DNA from: Hyphomicrobiales bacterium
Lineage (GTDB): Bacteria; Pseudomonadota; Alphaproteobacteria; Rhizobiales; Rhodomicrobiaceae
DNA length: 35,989 bases
NCBI GenBank assembly: GCA_019634405.1
Contig: JAHQVI010000093.1
Coordinates: 1-35,989, forward strand
Reading direction: 5' to 3'
A program made the translations under genes and the position numbers. Positions 6,484-32,196 of the stretch are shown one piece after another. Each line of letters opens with the position of its first letter. Within the stretch, counting starts at the first letter, position 1. The notes under the pieces are model-generated. The model did no database searches. It was not told the DNA's origin and was given only the letters and a program-made list of their open reading frames with translations.

Positions 6484-7614
<1,131 letters not shown>

Positions 7615-8260: not shown

Positions 8261-8648
<388 letters not shown>

Positions 8649-8655
8649 CCGACAA

Positions 8656-9546
8656 CTAAGGCGCAGGCGCGATATTTATAGTGATTTCATCCTCATACAG
8701 ACCTGCGCGTTTTGCGACGACATCGCCGATACGAAATTCAATCGCGAAGGATTGCCCCCCAATCCCGCCGCGCTCATAAGGACCTCCCTTGAATGGCAGC
8801 TTTAACCGGCTTCCATTCAGATCGAGATCATATTCAACCCGCCAATGCTGATAGGGTGGCTCCAGCGCCAGCGCCCCGCCATGAAGCGAAGTTATCTCAA
8901 GCAGAAAGCTGCGATTGGCGCGCGCTTCGATCACGACGCGGCGGCTCATGCCTTCGGCAAGTTCGCCGAAATCGACCGTCTTGCTCAGTCCCGCGCCCGC
9001 AATATTAACGCCGAGATGATCATCCACGCTGCATAGAAGCGGCAACTGGACCGTGCGCAGAGCAGCTGCAGCAGCTCCCTCATCGTCAGTAGGCGTCAAT
9101 ACCAGATCAATGCTGGTCCGAAACTGGCCTGGCGAGAGAAATTGCCCTTCCGGCAGGCTGTAGATCAACTCCAGCCTTTGCGCTTCCGCCGGGTTCAGCA
9201 TGCGGCTGATAATCTGGCCCTGTGTCCCGGGCGCAGAATCGCTATCAGCCAACACAGTCCCGTCAGCAGCCGCAATCCCAAAACCGAATGCGTGGCTGGC
9301 CGAGATCGCCTTGAACTGAACCCGGTATTGGCAGGCCTGGCTGCCAGTATTTTCGATTGTAACCGCGAATGCTCTCCGCTGCGCAACCGGATGGAACGGA
9401 TTATAATTTGCAATAGCCTCGTCGATGGCGGCAATACGCCCGAGACACGTCTGCGCAGCCGCCATGTTGGTGCCGCTGGCAAGTCCGTATAAAAGCATGG
9501 CTACCAATGCAATGAATTGGCGTTTCAAGAAAGACGGCGGTGTCAT
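8656..9546 (-). CDS. Spore coat protein U-like putative tip subunit of an archaic chaperone-usher pilus
   Basis: Signal peptide; SCPU-like C-terminus RAGLYEDEITINIAPAP; ATGA overlap with the usher gene. Confidence 0.72.
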   Translation of the reverse strand: MTPPSFLKRQFIALVAMLLYGLASGTNMAAAQTCLGRIAAIDEAIANYNPFHPVAQRRAFAVTIENTGSQACQYRVQFKAISASHAFGFGIAAADGTVLADSDSAPGTQGQIISRMLNPAEAQRLELIYSLPEGQFLSPGQFRTSIDLVLTPTDDEGAAAAALRTVQLPLLCSVDDHLGVNIAGAGLSKTVDFGELAEGMSRRVVIEARANRSFLLEITSLHGGALALEPPYQHWRVEYDLDLNGSRLKLPFKGGPYERGGIGGQSFAIEFRIGDVVAKRAGLYEDEITINIAPAP

Positions 9547-12170
9547 GGGCGAACCTCAAGCGGATGCAAGGCGCCGGCGCGAACCAGACCGATGCTTTCA
9601 TCCGGGATAACAAGTTCGAAGCGCTGCGGCGGCGTGCCCGCAAGCTCGATCAGCCATTGGCCCGGAGCAAGCCCTTGCGCTGCGAAGCGGCCGGCCCGGT
9701 TCGTGAACAGCTCGATCACCTTGCCCGGATTGGCGGCCTCCGTGGCCATCCCGGGCAGCAGTGCGATCGGTTCCCCCCGATTATCCACCAGCGTACCAAT
9801 CGCCGTGACGGTATAGGCGGAGCCGACATTAAGTGCATAGCCTGACCGATAGCCGGGCTGAAGATCAAAATGCCCATCGCCCAGATTGTAGCCTGCTGGC
9901 AAATCCGCGACGTCAAAATTGACTCGGTTCAGCGAATACGGCGAAATCGAAGGGATCAGTGCGGGCCCGAGCCGATCCGCCACAGCGGTTTCCGCCCGGC
10001 CAATCGTGATGTCATGACCGGACAGGCCGGAATGGGGCGCTACAATCGCAAATCCATCCGCAACCGGACGGCCAAGGGCAAAAACGCCATCGGCATAGGC
10101 AATGGCGGTCTCAACCCGCAAAGACGTACGCTGATCGAGCGCCTCCTCGTCAAGCCCGGCGAAACGCGTGGTCTGATAAACGCCGATCAGACCGCGATTG
10201 CCGCTATGCTGAATTAATCCGTCTACAGTGTAATTACTGAAAACCGGATCGAAATTCTCATTATCCGCCGCTTCATGGGAGATATCTCCTCTGACATACC
10301 AGCTATCACCGCCGCGGCCATAGCGCCTTGTATAGCTTGCGCGCGTCCTGTGCGCGGCCGGATCGTATGAAAACCCCAGCGCGCTATCGATATCGGGACG
10401 ATAATTCATGCGGAACTGCAAGCTCAGATCATCATCATCCTCGCGATGAAGCGCTGCGCTGTAGCCCGCAGTTACACCCAGATTCACCTCCGTTCCGAAT
10501 GAGCGGCTCAATCCGGCGTCAGCATGGAAACGGTCGTCTGACGCCGCAAAGCCAAAACCATATCCGGCTGCCAGGAAAGTCGATATTTCAAAAGGGATTT
10601 CCGTATGATAGCGGGCAGACAGATCAAGCCATCTGTCGTGGTGCGAGGCCACGACCTCCCGACTTTCGGGCGCATGCAGAATGGACCCGGTATAGTCATG
10701 ACTCCGACCTCGGATCGTGAACTGGAACGCATGGTTGCGATCATATGTGTCGGTCCAGACGGGCGGCGAATAATAGGCCTCGACAGCAAGACCCCACTGC
10801 TCTTCACCGACCACGCTCGCTGCCCCCTTGAGCGCAAAAAGCCCCAGGGACGATCCGTACACAAGACCGAGCCCCGCAAGACCGTAACCGGCGCCGCCCT
10901 GCAGATGCGCTTCGGCTGTTATCGTCTCCGCTATGCCCTGACGGTAATATCCCGTTCCAAAATAGTGGTCGCCATAGTCCGGTTCCCCACGATCGTATGA
11001 GGACAAAACGCCGCCGGACACAGCCCATTCCGACAAACCCGGCTCAAGCAGAGCCCCATCATGGAAAACAGAAAAGACCAGCCGTTCCTGTGCGCCAGCA
11101 TCGTCGGATATCAACAGGACAATTTCATTCAGACCGCTGCGTATCGGCAGATCGGAGAGACTGTAATCGCCGGGATCGAGTTTCAGGCGGCGTTCGATCA
11201 CACCGTTAATTTCGACATCGACATTGGAAGGGCGTTTGATACGGAAGCTACGACGGCTGGTTGGGCGAATGTTGCGGCCAGGCTGAAGCATACGGTAGGA
11301 TCGCTCGACGGAGACCCCAAGCAGGTCGGGCGTGCTTTGCATTGCCGCCCCGGCCGGGTAGATATCGCCGGCGCTGACACGAATGGCCTCCGCCTGAAAA
11401 TCGCGTATCAACCTTGTACCGCGACGCTTGAACCCATTGCCTGAGCGATGAAAAATTGAGACGTCGTCCGGCTCGTAAGTCGCTTCGGCCTCAACCACAA
11501 TTCCCCGCCAGCTCGCCGCACCTTCCAGATTGAGCCGCGGGATCGTCATCCCTTCCTGTCCTGCGGGCGACTTGCCGACATATTCGGCCACGCCACGGAT
11601 ATTGAGGAATGCCGCCAGCTTTGCTGGTTCGGCTACATTCGAACTATCCGGCACAGCCTTGCGTGCCTGCACGCTGATATTTCCTTCAACCTTCTGGTCC
11701 AGCGTCGGAGCAAAAGTGATGTTGACCGCGGCAGGGTCGAAGCGGAAATCGAAACCGGCGTCACGCAGTTTGGTGAGCGTGACATAGTCCTGCCCCTGGC
11801 TGACTGCGTGCAATTCCCGAAGCGTATCAGGGCGCACCAGTTCCCTAATGGCGCCGCCGAGATCTCCAATCGGGACTTCGACAGTCTGATGCGGAGTGAG
11901 CCGCACAGACAGATCGCCCAGATAATAATCCCGGTAGCCCAGGGGAACGATCATTTCGATTGTTCGTCCAATGCGATTGATTGGCTGGATATCCGGTTGA
12001 GGCGCCATGGCAGGCGGAAGATAGGATGCCGGTCCGGATGAAGGCGCTTGCGTGTGTCCCGGAGACGCGCAGAGAGCGGTCGCTACAGCGATGAGGGGAA
12101 GGGTGCGGCGAGCGCAGAAGCAGATGCTGACACGGCGACGCCAGCCTTTGAGGAAATCCACGCGCAACAT
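9543..12170 (-). CDS. Fimbrial outer membrane usher protein (archaic/Csu-like)
   Basis: 875 aa; usher-like segments (LNIRGVAEYVG, GDIYPAGAAMQSTPDLLGVSVERSYRMLQPGRNIRPTSRRSFRIKRPSNVDVEINGV, LPIRSGLNEIVLLI, DVADLPAGYNLGDGHFDLQPGYRSGYALNVGS). Confidence 0.9.
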   Translation of the reverse strand: MLRVDFLKGWRRRVSICFCARRTLPLIAVATALCASPGHTQAPSSGPASYLPPAMAPQPDIQPINRIGRTIEMIVPLGYRDYYLGDLSVRLTPHQTVEVPIGDLGGAIRELVRPDTLRELHAVSQGQDYVTLTKLRDAGFDFRFDPAAVNITFAPTLDQKVEGNISVQARKAVPDSSNVAEPAKLAAFLNIRGVAEYVGKSPAGQEGMTIPRLNLEGAASWRGIVVEAEATYEPDDVSIFHRSGNGFKRRGTRLIRDFQAEAIRVSAGDIYPAGAAMQSTPDLLGVSVERSYRMLQPGRNIRPTSRRSFRIKRPSNVDVEINGVIERRLKLDPGDYSLSDLPIRSGLNEIVLLISDDAGAQERLVFSVFHDGALLEPGLSEWAVSGGVLSSYDRGEPDYGDHYFGTGYYRQGIAETITAEAHLQGGAGYGLAGLGLVYGSSLGLFALKGAASVVGEEQWGLAVEAYYSPPVWTDTYDRNHAFQFTIRGRSHDYTGSILHAPESREVVASHHDRWLDLSARYHTEIPFEISTFLAAGYGFGFAASDDRFHADAGLSRSFGTEVNLGVTAGYSAALHREDDDDLSLQFRMNYRPDIDSALGFSYDPAAHRTRASYTRRYGRGGDSWYVRGDISHEAADNENFDPVFSNYTVDGLIQHSGNRGLIGVYQTTRFAGLDEEALDQRTSLRVETAIAYADGVFALGRPVADGFAIVAPHSGLSGHDITIGRAETAVADRLGPALIPSISPYSLNRVNFDVADLPAGYNLGDGHFDLQPGYRSGYALNVGSAYTVTAIGTLVDNRGEPIALLPGMATEAANPGKVIELFTNRAGRFAAQGLAPGQWLIELAGTPPQRFELVIPDESIGLVRAGALHPLEVRP

Positions 12171-12344
12171 ACGGCAAACACTTTCCTGTTTCGCAACACA
12201 ATTGCTGTGTGCGATATACTCCGTCCCAGGATCTTTTTCTTTGAGGTCATGCGGCCGCCAAGCGAAGGCGTCAGCAGAGCCGCAACAGCTCTCACGCCAC
12301 CGCTTTCAGCGCCATCGGATCAAACTGACTTGGCGATCATTGCC

Positions 12345-13121
12345 CTAATTCTCCGGTGCGTAATCTAAGCTTGCCGTGATATTGGAAACATCCGGCGGGA
12401 GATCGATCGGGAGTATGAACCGCCGCTCCTTCCCCGGCTGCACGATGCCGAGCCCGATCTTCTGTTCCATCTCATGGGCGCTGAGTATTTGCGACCAGTT
12501 TCCCGAAGCCAGACGCAATGCGGCGTAACGCATATAGGCATGTTTGTTACCCGCATTCTTCACATTCAATTCGACCAGATCAGCACCGCTGTCACTTTTG
12601 GCCGACTTTACTCTCGTCACGCTGATATCCGCTTGCGACTGAAGCGGAGAGACGCTGACGACAACCCCAAAGCTGAGGGTGATCTGAATGCCCGAACTGC
12701 CTTCAGGTTTCTTTACGGGAACCTGGGAAACGGAAATACGGTAATTACGGCTTCTGTCGATGTCCGGATCGCCGATCCACTGAACACGGAATGTCTGTGC
12801 ACCACCTGCTGGAATACTGGCCAGCGGAGGGAAGATCAAAAAATCATCTTCAGCGGGTGTGTATTTTGCATCACCATCCGGCTCCAACTCCATATGCGCA
12901 ACCGTGATTTCAACGGGCATGGAAGACGTCGTTATATTCGAGACGTTGAAAGCGGCATTGACCTTCGTTCCAGCGCTTGTGACATCAAGAACCATTGGTT
13001 CAACCGACATCGCCCCGACGCTAACAGCAGAAAGCGAGAGCAGGGCGATCGCGACGGAAAAAATACGCTTAAACTGCATACAAAAAGTCCTCCGGAAATT
13101 TCCTCCACGCTCTTCGGGCAT
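12345..13121 (-). CDS. Periplasmic pilus-assembly chaperone (PapD-like)
   Basis: Chaperone pattern MVLDV...NVSNITTSSMPVEITV, DFLIFPPLASIPAGGAQTFRVQWIGDPDIDRSRNYRISVSQVPVK; adjacent to usher. Confidence 0.9.
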   Translation of the reverse strand: MPEERGGNFRRTFCMQFKRIFSVAIALLSLSAVSVGAMSVEPMVLDVTSAGTKVNAAFNVSNITTSSMPVEITVAHMELEPDGDAKYTPAEDDFLIFPPLASIPAGGAQTFRVQWIGDPDIDRSRNYRISVSQVPVKKPEGSSGIQITLSFGVVVSVSPLQSQADISVTRVKSAKSDSGADLVELNVKNAGNKHAYMRYAALRLASGNWSQILSAHEMEQKIGLGIVQPGKERRFILPIDLPPDVSNITASLDYAPEN

Positions 13122-25752: not shown

Positions 25753-27609
25753 CTAAAGCCCTAACATACGCGTTCCGAACATTGCCAGTTCAGTTAGCAC
25801 TCCACCAAGTATCATGACGGCAATCCACTTGATGCCTCGTCCCATTGCCAGCCAATAATTCGTCCGCACATTGATCGTGATAACCTGATCCGGCAGAGCG
25901 GAATCCGCAACTGCGCCATTCGCGCCAACACTGCGCGACGCAACAAGCAGTTGGAGCGTGCGCGTTCCCTTACGGCTTGGCGTAACTGACCAGCGCCAGC
26001 GCCCATAAACATCGTTTTCGTCGGCGCGATTGAATATCCATTGTGTTTCAGGGTTCAGCGGTTCGATGTTGAAACCGCCTTCCGGTGCACGAAGCGCCAC
26101 GCTCATGGTTTGCGTGATGTTGATGTCATGCCCATGCATATCGCCGCGACCGTCAAAACCACGCAGGATCGCAATGGTTTCTTCCCGCGATATGCGGACC
26201 TCCACGCGTTCGGCGACGGATGCGCGCATCTTGCGGGGGATATTCTCCAAAAGACGTCCGGCGATGGTGTCCTGCGGACTTCGTTGCCGCTGGCGCTTCA
26301 CCGGAAGGTTGGGCGATCCCCCAGCCGATCGGCCGTTTTTCGCCGGAACTTGCCCGCCACGCGTACGGCGCGTCTTCTGGCCGCCCATTTGCGGTGGGGC
26401 CGCAGGAGCAGGAGCGGGTGGCGCTTCCCCGCGGCTGCGCGGCCGATTGAGACGCATCTCGTCGAGGCGGCTCACAGGGGGAACCGGATCCATCGACATC
26501 TTGTCGGCGGGCGGTTGAGGCGGACCCTGGTACTGCTTTCGTTCTCCGCCGCCACGATAGCCGGAAAAATTGCCGTTCGGAGGCGTTTTCACCGGTGGCG
26601 GAGATGGTGGCGGCTCCATGCGGAGGTTTGGCCGTTCCGGCGGCGCATATCCTCCCGGCGCGCTCGTCTTGCGGCGATGGCGGATCTCAGGCTCGTTCAC
26701 CGGCGGAGGAGGAGGAGGAGGCGGCGGTGATGCACGCGAGTCAACAGCAGGCTCAAGCGCTTCTTCTTCATAGACCTCAATATCGGCTTCAACCTCACTC
26801 AGCGCTTCTTCTACGGCCTCTATTTCCAGCTCAAGCAGATCCCCATCATGAGTACTTTCTGCCGGCTCGGCAGGCGCCGACATCACGGCAGGGGACTCTT
26901 TCGGCGCGTCATGTCTAGCCTGCATTTGCGCTGGCGCCGGGGCAGGAGCCCTGGCATAGCGTTCGCGAGCGGGAGCGGCGTTGGCGGGCGTTCGCATCTG
27001 CGCGCCCGGAACAGGGCCACGCTGCGCGGGAGTCGGCACCGGCATGTCGATCGCGGGCGTTCCCAGATTGTGGTCTTCGACTTCAGGTTCGGGCTCGGGC
27101 GCGGGCGTCGGATTTCTGCGCGGCGAAGGTGTCGTCGCGCCGCGATTGGCGTAGAGCCAGGACACAGCGCTGGCGTAGCCAACGCCATTCCGCTTCAGCA
27201 CCTCACTCGCCATATTGTCCGATTCGCGAGACAGGGCCGCAATGACGAACGCTGCATCCACCTCCTCACAATTCAGGCGGTCCGCGTCATCGGAGGCAGT
27301 TTGCAGAACACGCTCGACCTTGTAGCTGGCGTGCAGATCAAATTCGCCCGGCGTGTAAAGAGACGTCAGCCCGCGATTGACCGCCTCCGCAATATTGCCG
27401 CGAATCCCGGCCATATCCGCCTGCAGCCCCTCAAGAATCTCCGTCGTGCTGGGATCATCCATGAGCGTGTACAGCAAATGCTCAAGCGTCACATAGCGGT
27501 GCGACCGCTGCTGCGCGAGCGAAATGGCGCGCTCAATGGACAATGCAAGATAGGTCGATTGAGGAAGATCGGTTTGGAATCCCGATGTCTCGGCCACGCG
27601 AACCTCCAA
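25753..27609 (-). CDS. Clp-N-domain protein with long proline-rich linker and C-terminal transmembrane segment, function unknown
   Basis: N-terminus LSIERAISLAQQRSHRYVTLEHLLYTLMDDPSTTEIL...VERVLQTASDDADRLNCEEVDAAFVIAALSRESDNMASEVLKRNGV (two Clp-N-type repeats), PPPPPPPPP linker, C-terminal hydrophobic WIAVMILGGVLTELAMF. Confidence 0.85.
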   Translation of the reverse strand: MEVRVAETSGFQTDLPQSTYLALSIERAISLAQQRSHRYVTLEHLLYTLMDDPSTTEILEGLQADMAGIRGNIAEAVNRGLTSLYTPGEFDLHASYKVERVLQTASDDADRLNCEEVDAAFVIAALSRESDNMASEVLKRNGVGYASAVSWLYANRGATTPSPRRNPTPAPEPEPEVEDHNLGTPAIDMPVPTPAQRGPVPGAQMRTPANAAPARERYARAPAPAPAQMQARHDAPKESPAVMSAPAEPAESTHDGDLLELEIEAVEEALSEVEADIEVYEEEALEPAVDSRASPPPPPPPPPVNEPEIRHRRKTSAPGGYAPPERPNLRMEPPPSPPPVKTPPNGNFSGYRGGGERKQYQGPPQPPADKMSMDPVPPVSRLDEMRLNRPRSRGEAPPAPAPAAPPQMGGQKTRRTRGGQVPAKNGRSAGGSPNLPVKRQRQRSPQDTIAGRLLENIPRKMRASVAERVEVRISREETIAILRGFDGRGDMHGHDINITQTMSVALRAPEGGFNIEPLNPETQWIFNRADENDVYGRWRWSVTPSRKGTRTLQLLVASRSVGANGAVADSALPDQVITINVRTNYWLAMGRGIKWIAVMILGGVLTELAMFGTRMLGL

Positions 27610-27831: not shown

Positions 27832-28746
27832 ATGGGAAGTTCCGCCGAGGCAGGATATATGCCGATAACACCGCATACACATGCCGTCATCCTTTCCGAA
27901 GCGCTCCCCTACATGCAGCGTTACGACCAGCAAAACGTTGTCGTGAAATATGGCGGGCACGCTATGGGTGATGCGGAGCTATCCTCATGTTTCGCCAAGG
28001 ATATAACGCTTTTGGAGCAATCTGGCGTTAAACCGGTCGTCGTACATGGCGGCGGCCCTCAGATCGGACGGCTGCTTGACCGCCTGCAAATCAAATCGGA
28101 ATTTGCTGACGGCCTGCGGGTCACGGACGCCGCAACCGTTGAGATTGTGGAAATGGTTCTGGCCGGATCGATCAACAAGCAGATCGTTGCCGCCATAAAC
28201 CAGGCAGGCGGCCGGGCTTGCGGAATTTCCGGTAAGGACGCCAATCTGCTGATCGCAAAGAAGCTGGAACGGCGCGTGCGCGATCCGCAATCGAATATCG
28301 AACGCGTGATCGACCTTGGCTTCGTGGGCGAACCTGAAGAGGTAAACCCCCGAATTGTCGAAGTTATCGCCAGTGGCGATCTGATCCCGGTCGTGGCGCC
28401 GCTTGGCGTCTCCCGCGATGGCATGACCTACAATATCAATGCCGATACATTTGCCTCCGCGCTCGCGACGGCGATGAAAGCGAAACGCTTGCTATTGCTG
28501 ACGGATGTTGTCGGGGTCCTGGATAAAGAGGGGCGGCTCATCCCGAAGCTCACCGTATCGGAAGCGCGCGCGCTGATTGAGGACGGCACGATAACCGGTG
28601 GAATGATTCCAAAGGTTCAAGGCTGTATTGACGTCGTTGAAGCAGGCGTCGAGGCCGTCGTCATCATCAATGGCAAGGTCCCGCACGCCGTACTGACGGA
28701 ACTGTTCACCCAGCACGGCGCAGGTACATTGATCGAGCGCGACTAA
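27832..28746 (+). CDS. argB: Acetylglutamate kinase
   Basis: [81 protein letters not shown]. Confidence 0.96.
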
Positions 28747-30724: not shown

Positions 30725-31516
30725 ATGACAATTTCAGTCCGCCCGCTTAATTTTACGGGTATGGAACTCATCACAACCGCAGAAAAGTCCGCATTTCGCC
30801 GTGTCGACAGCTGGATTTTCGATCTCGACAACACGCTCTACCCGGCCGAATGCAACCTCTTCATGCAGATTGACGAGCGTATGGGCGCTTTCATATCCGA
30901 ATTTCTCGGGGTCGACGGCGCGGAAGCCCGGCGGGTGCAGAAAGACTATTTTTACCGCTACGGGACGACGCTGACCGGTCTGATGAACGAACATAAGCTC
31001 GCGCCGGAGCGTTATCTGGACTTCGTACACGACATCGACCTGACGCCCGTCGCCGCCTCGCCTCAGCTTGGCGCCGCCATCGAAAACCTGCCAGGCCGCA
31101 AATATATCTTTACCAATGGCTCCCGCCGTCACGCGGAGCGCGTTGCGGAAAAGCTCGGCGTTCTGCAACATTTCGAGGATATTTTCGACATCGTCTCCGG
31201 AGACTACGTCCCGAAGCCGTCAGCGGAAGCTTACGACCGCTTTTTGAAGGCACACGGCGTGAACGCGGTAAGCAGCGCCATGTTCGAGGATATCCCTCAC
31301 AATCTCGAAGCGCCGCACAAGCTGGGCATGTCAACGGTGCTGGTGCATTCCGGCCAATACGATCACCCGTCGCAGAAACAGATCAAGGAATGGCGCACGC
31401 TGCCTCCGCATGTGCACCATATAACGGCGGATCTGACCGGCTTTCTTGAGGAGACGCTGATCGGGATCGCCGCAAGGCTGGACGGCGCGCCTGACAGCGA
31501 TCACGCCGGCTGCTGA
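30725..31516 (+). CDS. Pyrimidine 5'-nucleotidase-like HAD hydrolase
   Basis: WIFDLDNTLYPAECNLF, YIFTNGSRRHAERVAEKLGV, GDYVPKPSAEAYDRFL, FEDIPHNLEAPHKLGM. Confidence 0.92.
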   Translation: MTISVRPLNFTGMELITTAEKSAFRRVDSWIFDLDNTLYPAECNLFMQIDERMGAFISEFLGVDGAEARRVQKDYFYRYGTTLTGLMNEHKLAPERYLDFVHDIDLTPVAASPQLGAAIENLPGRKYIFTNGSRRHAERVAEKLGVLQHFEDIFDIVSGDYVPKPSAEAYDRFLKAHGVNAVSSAMFEDIPHNLEAPHKLGMSTVLVHSGQYDHPSQKQIKEWRTLPPHVHHITADLTGFLEETLIGIAARLDGAPDSDHAGC

Positions 31517-32196
31517 CACGCTCCGCCGCTTTCGCTCGTTGTCCAGCTCCTGGTCAGTCCGATGCCGATAGCGGCAATCGCGCCGCCGAGAGGAATGACA
31601 TAGTCCGGCGAATCCAGCTCACCGAGCATCAAAGCCGAGATCACGCACCACAGCACAGGCACAATCATCAGCGCCCAGCGTATGCCGCCCGACGTGATGG
31701 ACAGGAACGCCAGCGTTGCGATCACGGTCGGGTCCGGCATGAGACCGAAAATCTCGGCCGCCGACCAGGACCGGCCCAGCAATGGCGCAATGTAAGGATA
31801 CGCCAGAACCGACGCCGAGAACAGAACCTGTCCTGAGATCGCAACGCCGCTCTGCCTCGGCGCAAGGCTGAGCCCGCCCCCCGTAACGCCAACGGCAATC
31901 AGCGCGGCCCCTTGCAGAGCCATGAATGGCGCAATATAGTCAATCGGCCAGTTGATCGTTGCAAAGCGCTCCCAGAGAAAGGCGTAGGAGACCCAAATCC
32001 AGACGATCCCGAGCGATATTGCGGCGAACCGAATGCCCTTCCCCCTGATCAGGGCGACAAGTATCGCCACTCCCAGAGCAAGCGCGAGCAACTGAGCTGG
32101 AGCGACAACCTCATTATACAGCACGATCAGGCGGTAATAGACGCGAGGCGAAAACATCAACGCGTCGGACAGGGAAAAGTTAAGCCATTCCGACAT
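31501..32196 (-). CDS. Multi-spanning membrane protein, DUF6064-like
   Basis: 231 aa, several hydrophobic segments; YRLIVLYNEVVAPAQLLALALGVAIL; TAATG overlap with the upstream reductase gene. Confidence 0.7.
   Translation of the reverse strand: MSEWLNFSLSDALMFSPRVYYRLIVLYNEVVAPAQLLALALGVAILVALIRGKGIRFAAISLGIVWIWVSYAFLWERFATINWPIDYIAPFMALQGAALIAVGVTGGGLSLAPRQSGVAISGQVLFSASVLAYPYIAPLLGRSWSAAEIFGLMPDPTVIATLAFLSITSGGIRWALMIVPVLWCVISALMLGELDSPDYVIPLGGAIAAIGIGLTRSWTTSESGGACQQPA

Follow-up and report, generated by a model that had tools for sequence, protein, structure and literature searches.

A ClpA-type N-domain without AAA+ modules in a predicted tail-anchored protein of Hyphomicrobiales

Clp N-domains are a binding place for substrates, adaptors and several antibiotics. 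That a Clp_N domain can occur without an ATPase is already known from mycobacterial ClpC2 (PMC10030653) and from plant ClpT1 and ClpT2 (PMC4243950). ClpC2 is a ClpC-type protein that dimerises via its N-terminal domain, binds DNA and sponges cyclomarin; the binding of a Clp-targeting ligand and the regulation of its own gene are the traits of a sponge of this type (PMC10030653). The ClpT proteins are homologues of the Clp N-terminal region standing alone, small accessory factors of the chloroplast that associate with the ClpPR complex (PMC4243950). Two further proteins are relevant for comparison: StpX (NF051869), a stalk-specific inner-membrane protein of Caulobacter whose role is unknown (PMC5590869), and PopZ (DUF2497, PF10691), which uses its N-terminal region for client binding (PMC9512792).

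The protein described here is encoded in a window of 35,989 nucleotides, the whole stretch of DNA that was analysed (Table 1). It resembles the ClpA N-domain (PF02861; PDB 1r6o, 1k6k) in sequence and fold, but the AAA+ modules are absent, and with them unfolding and the ClpP-binding part. With ClpC2 it has in common a Clp_N-type domain without ATPase but it is of the ClpA type and carries a long linker and a predicted membrane tail; ClpT proteins, on the other hand, possess neither linker nor beta-domain nor membrane anchor. The likeness to StpX is remote, runs through stand-alone relatives and concerns the membrane-proximal beta-domain with its transmembrane (TM) helix; StpX is not known with Clp_N, and the beta-domain is predicted to be periplasmic in the stand-alone relatives examined but cytosolic in the Clp_N family. 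A linker motif of many family members, embedded in a Pro-rich stretch, resembles the PopZ N-terminal EPSMEEILASIRRII, whereas the C-terminal domain of PopZ is absent from the family. In the literature searched, mostly outside subscription journals, we found no ClpA-type, tail-anchored, StpX-related form.

Table 1. Features of the gene under study and of the surrounding window.
Feature	Position	Strand	Remarks
Whole coding sequence	25753..27597	-	614 aa, GTG start; mechanical ORF 25753-27609, 618 aa from TTG
Double Clp_N domain, ClpA type	27145..27549	-	Residues ~21-155 (618-aa reading), ~17-151 (614-aa reading); Pfam, NCBIfam, PDB, AlphaFold and Foldseek
Low-complexity Pro/Ala/Arg/Glu-rich linker	26260..27144	-	~296 aa, 21% Pro in the window protein
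C-terminal beta-sandwich (Ig-like), distantly StpX-related	25843..26256	-	AlphaFold pLDDT 86.5; hhalign; L136 to NCBIfam StpX
C-terminal membrane helix, predicted tail anchor	25759..25857	-	Helix 143-173 of the modelled piece; hydropathy; upstream side positive
argB, divergent neighbour, not a functional part	27832..28746	+	NCBIfam TIGR00761 5.7e-76; synteny
DNA adenine methylase with RAMA domain, CcrM kind	6493-7614	+	
RNase P RNA, class A	8262-8646	+	Rfam 324 bits
Usher and PapD-like chaperone genes, chaperone-usher pilus cluster	9543-13121	-	Weak usher score
DUF6064 protein beside aldo/keto reductase-like gene	31501-32196	-	

Start codon and ClpA-type N-domain

The open reading frame of 618 codons listed in the preliminary description is real, but it runs on the minus strand from 27609 to 25753 and the likely length of the product is 614 aa. 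A TTGGAGG sequence precedes the GTG at 27597 (window sequence: GAATTGGAGGTTCGC GTG GCC GAG ACA TCG), and the corresponding region of a relative from Rhodomicrobium sp. R_RK_3 reads GGAGGGAGGC GTG GCC GAG ACA TCG, such that GGAGG and GTG are common to both. GTG 27597 is therefore probably the true start, and the listed TTG would be part of the ribosome-binding site. Residue numbers in the text refer to the 618-aa reading, from which 4 has to be subtracted for the 614-aa reading.

A Pfam scan matched the N-terminal region to PF02861 (Clp_N) in two stretches with 1.8e-10 and 41.2 bits, the curated cut-off being 20.7. ClpA was the best NCBIfam match of the N-domain (2.2e-16, compared with 1e-7 for ClpB and 7e-4 for TssH), and a sequence search with the window N-domain retrieved ClpA N-domain chains in the PDB at 8e-12. 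The AlphaFold model computed from 31 sequences (pLDDT 91.2, pTM 0.87) has the all-helical double-repeat Clp_N fold. Its top Foldseek match was 1r6o, the ClpA N-domain from the ClpA-ClpS crystal (E 2.9e-8, rmsd 1.5 A, 27% identity); 8ad9 (ClpC2) was also among the structural matches. AAA+ modules with Walker motifs were not detected in the window protein by Pfam and NCBIfam scans of the reading frame, the remainder consisting of linker, beta-domain and TM helix. Both the Clp-N assignment and the absence of an AAA+ domain, as proposed in the preliminary description, are thus borne out, and the structure prediction suggested there agrees with the HMM match in placing the N-domain closest to those of ClpA.

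In ClpA, ClpS is contacted by E23, E28, T81 and R86 (PMC12493166). All four residues are present in 10 of 10 alphaproteobacterial ClpA proteins, while the window protein has R, E, S and R at these positions. Across the family, E28 is conserved in 58/65 and R86 in 50/65 sequences; E23 and T81 are found in 0/65 each, the latter being replaced by Ser in 51. As E23 and T81 are never kept, docking of ClpS in the manner of ClpA is not predicted for the family N-domain, and its ligand is likely to be other than ClpS. E28-H29 are probably retained for the sake of the fold. In three of 22 family-bearing genomes, all of them fragmented metagenome-assembled genomes (MAGs; G000, which is the window's own, G052 and G054), neither a ClpA N-domain nor ClpS was found, which may reflect assembly gaps. 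Loss of ClpA and ClpS from the window genome was set aside as a clue because this MAG is 82% complete and clpS adjoins clpA in relatives.

Membrane-proximal domain, topology and linker

The C-terminal domain had no match in Pfam, NCBIfam, PHROGs or PDB sequences, and no Pfam or NCBIfam model covers it. Its AlphaFold model (55 sequences, pLDDT 86.5) comprises about nine strands followed by the helix listed in Table 1. Foldseek with this model returned generic Ig-like folds alone, with TM-scores of 0.3-0.4, and we therefore derive no functional reading from the fold. Profile searches uncovered distant relatives of the domain without Clp_N, namely an alphaproteobacterial pair (L102/L103), L121, L125, L134 and a protein encoded in the window's own genome (C86, see below), as well as further stand-alone forms in Paraburkholderia, Calothrix and one phage record. 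The distant-profile searches covered 399, 385 and 399 Pseudomonadota genomes, plus plasmids and phages; in these genomes the matches were exclusively stand-alone membrane or lipoprotein forms. When seven stand-alone relatives were aligned without any Clp_N protein and compared with the family C-domain by hhalign, the probability was 98.2% (E 3e-14). One stand-alone relative, L136, matches NCBIfam StpX over positions 242-359 of 516 (1.6e-6, 27.7 bits), for which the equivalog cut-off is 450 bits, and a protein on contig C86 of the window's own genome does so weakly (0.0077); the window C-domain itself does not match NF051869. By way of the stand-alone relatives, the C-domain is thus a remote relative of the domain that lies next to the membrane in StpX.

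The C86 protein (G000:C86:10798-11250; L126, L135 2609-4258) has 550 aa and constitutes a second occurrence of an StpX-like beta-domain with TM helix in this genome; a long Glu/Ala-rich repeat precedes the beta-domain and an acidic tail follows it. The phage record (L139; LR756501.1, 735 kb, from a very large uncultured phage) encodes a protein resembling a lipoprotein, in which this beta-domain is likewise combined with a C-terminal TM helix.

Hydropathy analysis of the window protein yielded a single stretch, at about residues 594-613 of 620 at the extreme C-terminus, and neither a signal peptide nor an N-terminal TM helix. Hydrophobic stretches ahead of the C-domain are marginal in the Clp_N family and all lie inside the Clp_N fold. 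In many members the tail reaches no more than moderate hydrophobicity, and in 27/64 relatives it falls under a stricter hydropathy cut-off of 1.4. On average across the family, the 15 residues before the C-terminal helix carry a net charge of +1.9 and those after it +0.36. Since an N-terminal membrane segment is missing and the positive charge lies upstream of the helix, the positive-inside rule predicts a tail-anchored protein whose beta-domain and Clp_N domain face the cytosol. The stand-alone relatives examined possess an N-terminal TM helix or a lipoprotein signal, and in L102, L121 and L125 the C-terminal hydrophobic stretch is followed by positive charges, for which reasons their beta-domain should be periplasmic.

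The linker is between 139 and 527 aa long in relatives. A motif like xxEDILASARERVQ occurs in 39 of 65 family linkers and in none of 200 rounds of shuffled linkers. It is in L004, L009, L010, L016, L038 and others that the short stretch resembling the PopZ N-terminus is seen within the linker. A profile made from PopZ N-termini alone matched 16/65 family linkers (best E 0.07) and no shuffled linker, and when it was applied to 5,616 unique ORFs, 17 of the 25 non-PopZ matches were family members; as these are mutually related, the Fisher p cannot be taken at face value. In the reverse direction, a profile based solely on Hyphomicrobiaceae linkers failed to pick PopZ from whole genomes. The window protein does not contain the PopZ N-terminal motif xPS(M/I)EEILASIRxII, its best linker score being -6.5 compared with 7-46 in most of the relatives shown. 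After these mixed profile results we keep the link to PopZ as a lead rather than a finding, and for the family level only.

The remaining domain assignments of the preliminary description also stood up: the linker is indeed of low complexity and rich in proline, the C-terminal region is folded, as judged from its model and its recurrence in 68 loci, and belongs to no Pfam or NCBIfam family, and the C-terminal TM helix is upheld as a prediction by the AlphaFold helix and hydropathy.

Distribution and chromosomal setting

Across 84,980 species genomes, a single scan found 68 loci. The N-domain lies in the same open frame in 64 of them, while the other four genes hit a contig end or stop at most 15 bases short; every one of the 64 relatives whose gene is complete has the same architecture. 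In an order-wide sample of 61 genomes the C-domain was found in 22, distributed over 14 of about 52 families, and two of the most distant members of this sample have the full architecture as well. Because the frame is the same in 64 loci and the fusion is found in two of the most distant genomes, we regard the joining of Clp_N and C-domain as old and stable, yet patchy within Hyphomicrobiales. Many family members stem from Hyphomicrobium, Filomicrobium and Rhodomicrobium, genera of budding bacteria from soil and water with hyphae or prosthecae.

The gene is adjoined by argB in 58/68 loci, divergently as in the window, and a pyrimidine 5'-nucleotidase gene mostly comes next; the distant loci L004, L012, L019 and L115 likewise have argB. 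YidC-like and EngB-like genes, named from sequence and not by profile, are usually situated on the other side, where the window instead has genes for an NlpC/P60 protein and a leucyl aminopeptidase. A search of plasmids revealed no full-length copy; the matches were short, confined to the N-domain and ClpA-like. Given the linkage with argB and the lack of a full-length copy on plasmids, we consider that part of the Hyphomicrobiales has inherited this as a core gene and that it is no defence cassette. A defence island was rejected: PADLOC found 0 families, and the neighbours are metabolic and cell-envelope genes. The preliminary description had raised possible defence signalling, which these results do not support. 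Recurrence of the C-domain with TIR, caspase or other effector domains, for which it proposed a profile search, was not seen in the 399, 385 and 399 Pseudomonadota genomes; the C-domain instead recurs in lipoproteins and in StpX-like proteins with two membrane anchors, between which it lies.

Possible functions

The membrane-tethered adaptor put forward at the outset is still the best guess, without its defence component, and we tentatively favour a membrane-tethered docking hub or decoy in which a ClpA-type N-domain works without an unfoldase. As a tail-anchored protein of the inner membrane it would display this domain into the cytosol on a long disordered tether, and the domain would bind a peptide, degron or adaptor as Clp N-domains do. 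Since no ATPase is attached, it could only dock, hold or compete, by which docking would be separated from unfolding. The membrane-proximal beta-sandwich would serve to hold a partner in the envelope or to fix the protein in its place. The net effect would most likely be that clients or a Clp adaptor are concentrated or sequestered at the membrane, tuning what ClpAP sees; there is no direct tie of the family protein to ClpP.

It appears rather doubtful that the protein instead acts as a scaffold for envelope structure or polarity in budding, prosthecate bacteria, brought to the pole, the hypha or the neck of the bud by its StpX-like domain and the PopZ-like linker motif, with Clp_N acting as a mere protein-protein module outside proteolysis. 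The relationship to stalk-specific StpX (PMC5590869), the StpX-like protein encoded in the same genome, the PopZ-like linker motif with the matches of the PopZ N-terminus profile, the client-binding role of that region in PopZ (PMC9512792) and the many members from budding, hypha- or prostheca-forming genera all speak for it. However, the link to StpX is indirect and not apparent for the window C-domain itself, the likeness to PopZ is short and weak (single hits with E 0.07-8), is missed by the reverse profile and does not extend to the window protein, and the stand-alone domain is not confined to stalked or budding lineages, being present in Paraburkholderia and Calothrix and on a phage record. 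A combined version, in which an adaptor shared by the whole lineage and tethered to the membrane brings a ClpA-type N-domain to the pole, hypha or bud neck via the StpX-like domain and, in most members, the PopZ-like motif, and spatially organises regulated proteolysis during budding, strikes us as quite improbable. The same low probability is attached to a decoy role, in which the protein would sequester toxins, antibiotics or phage proteins that target the N-domain of ClpA. This would follow the logic of ClpC2 and cyclomarin, a Clp_N-type domain without ATPase (PMC10030653), and the docking surface has in part diverged from ClpA, but a sponge needs no membrane anchor, a DNA-binding part as in ClpC2 is not apparent, and the gene has been inherited in a constant position on the chromosome, even between distant families, and had 0 PADLOC matches.

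An adaptor or sensor of immune signalling, sharing its C-domain with TIR or caspase effectors, has in its favour only that the protein is modular and anchored in the membrane, as such proteins generally look; we judge it very unlikely in view of the PADLOC result, the core-gene synteny with metabolic and cell-envelope neighbours and the lack of effector fusions in any of the three sets of 385-399 Pseudomonadota genomes searched. The long low-complexity stretch and the non-ATG start might even suggest a decayed ClpA copy, that is a pseudogene, or a chance ORF. This is hardly conceivable, as the open architecture is the same in 64 relatives, both folded ends are conserved and the Shine-Dalgarno sequence and start are common to the Rhodomicrobium relative.

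The docking hub or decoy that we favour would mean that a core gene of these bacteria places a motorless ClpA-type N-domain at the membrane and that docking is separated from unfolding in them. The family joins two undescribed pieces, an StpX-related membrane-proximal domain for which neither Pfam nor NCBIfam has a model and a PopZ-like motif in proteins other than PopZ, and, if the reading is true, it would offer a handle on how budding cells place proteolysis.
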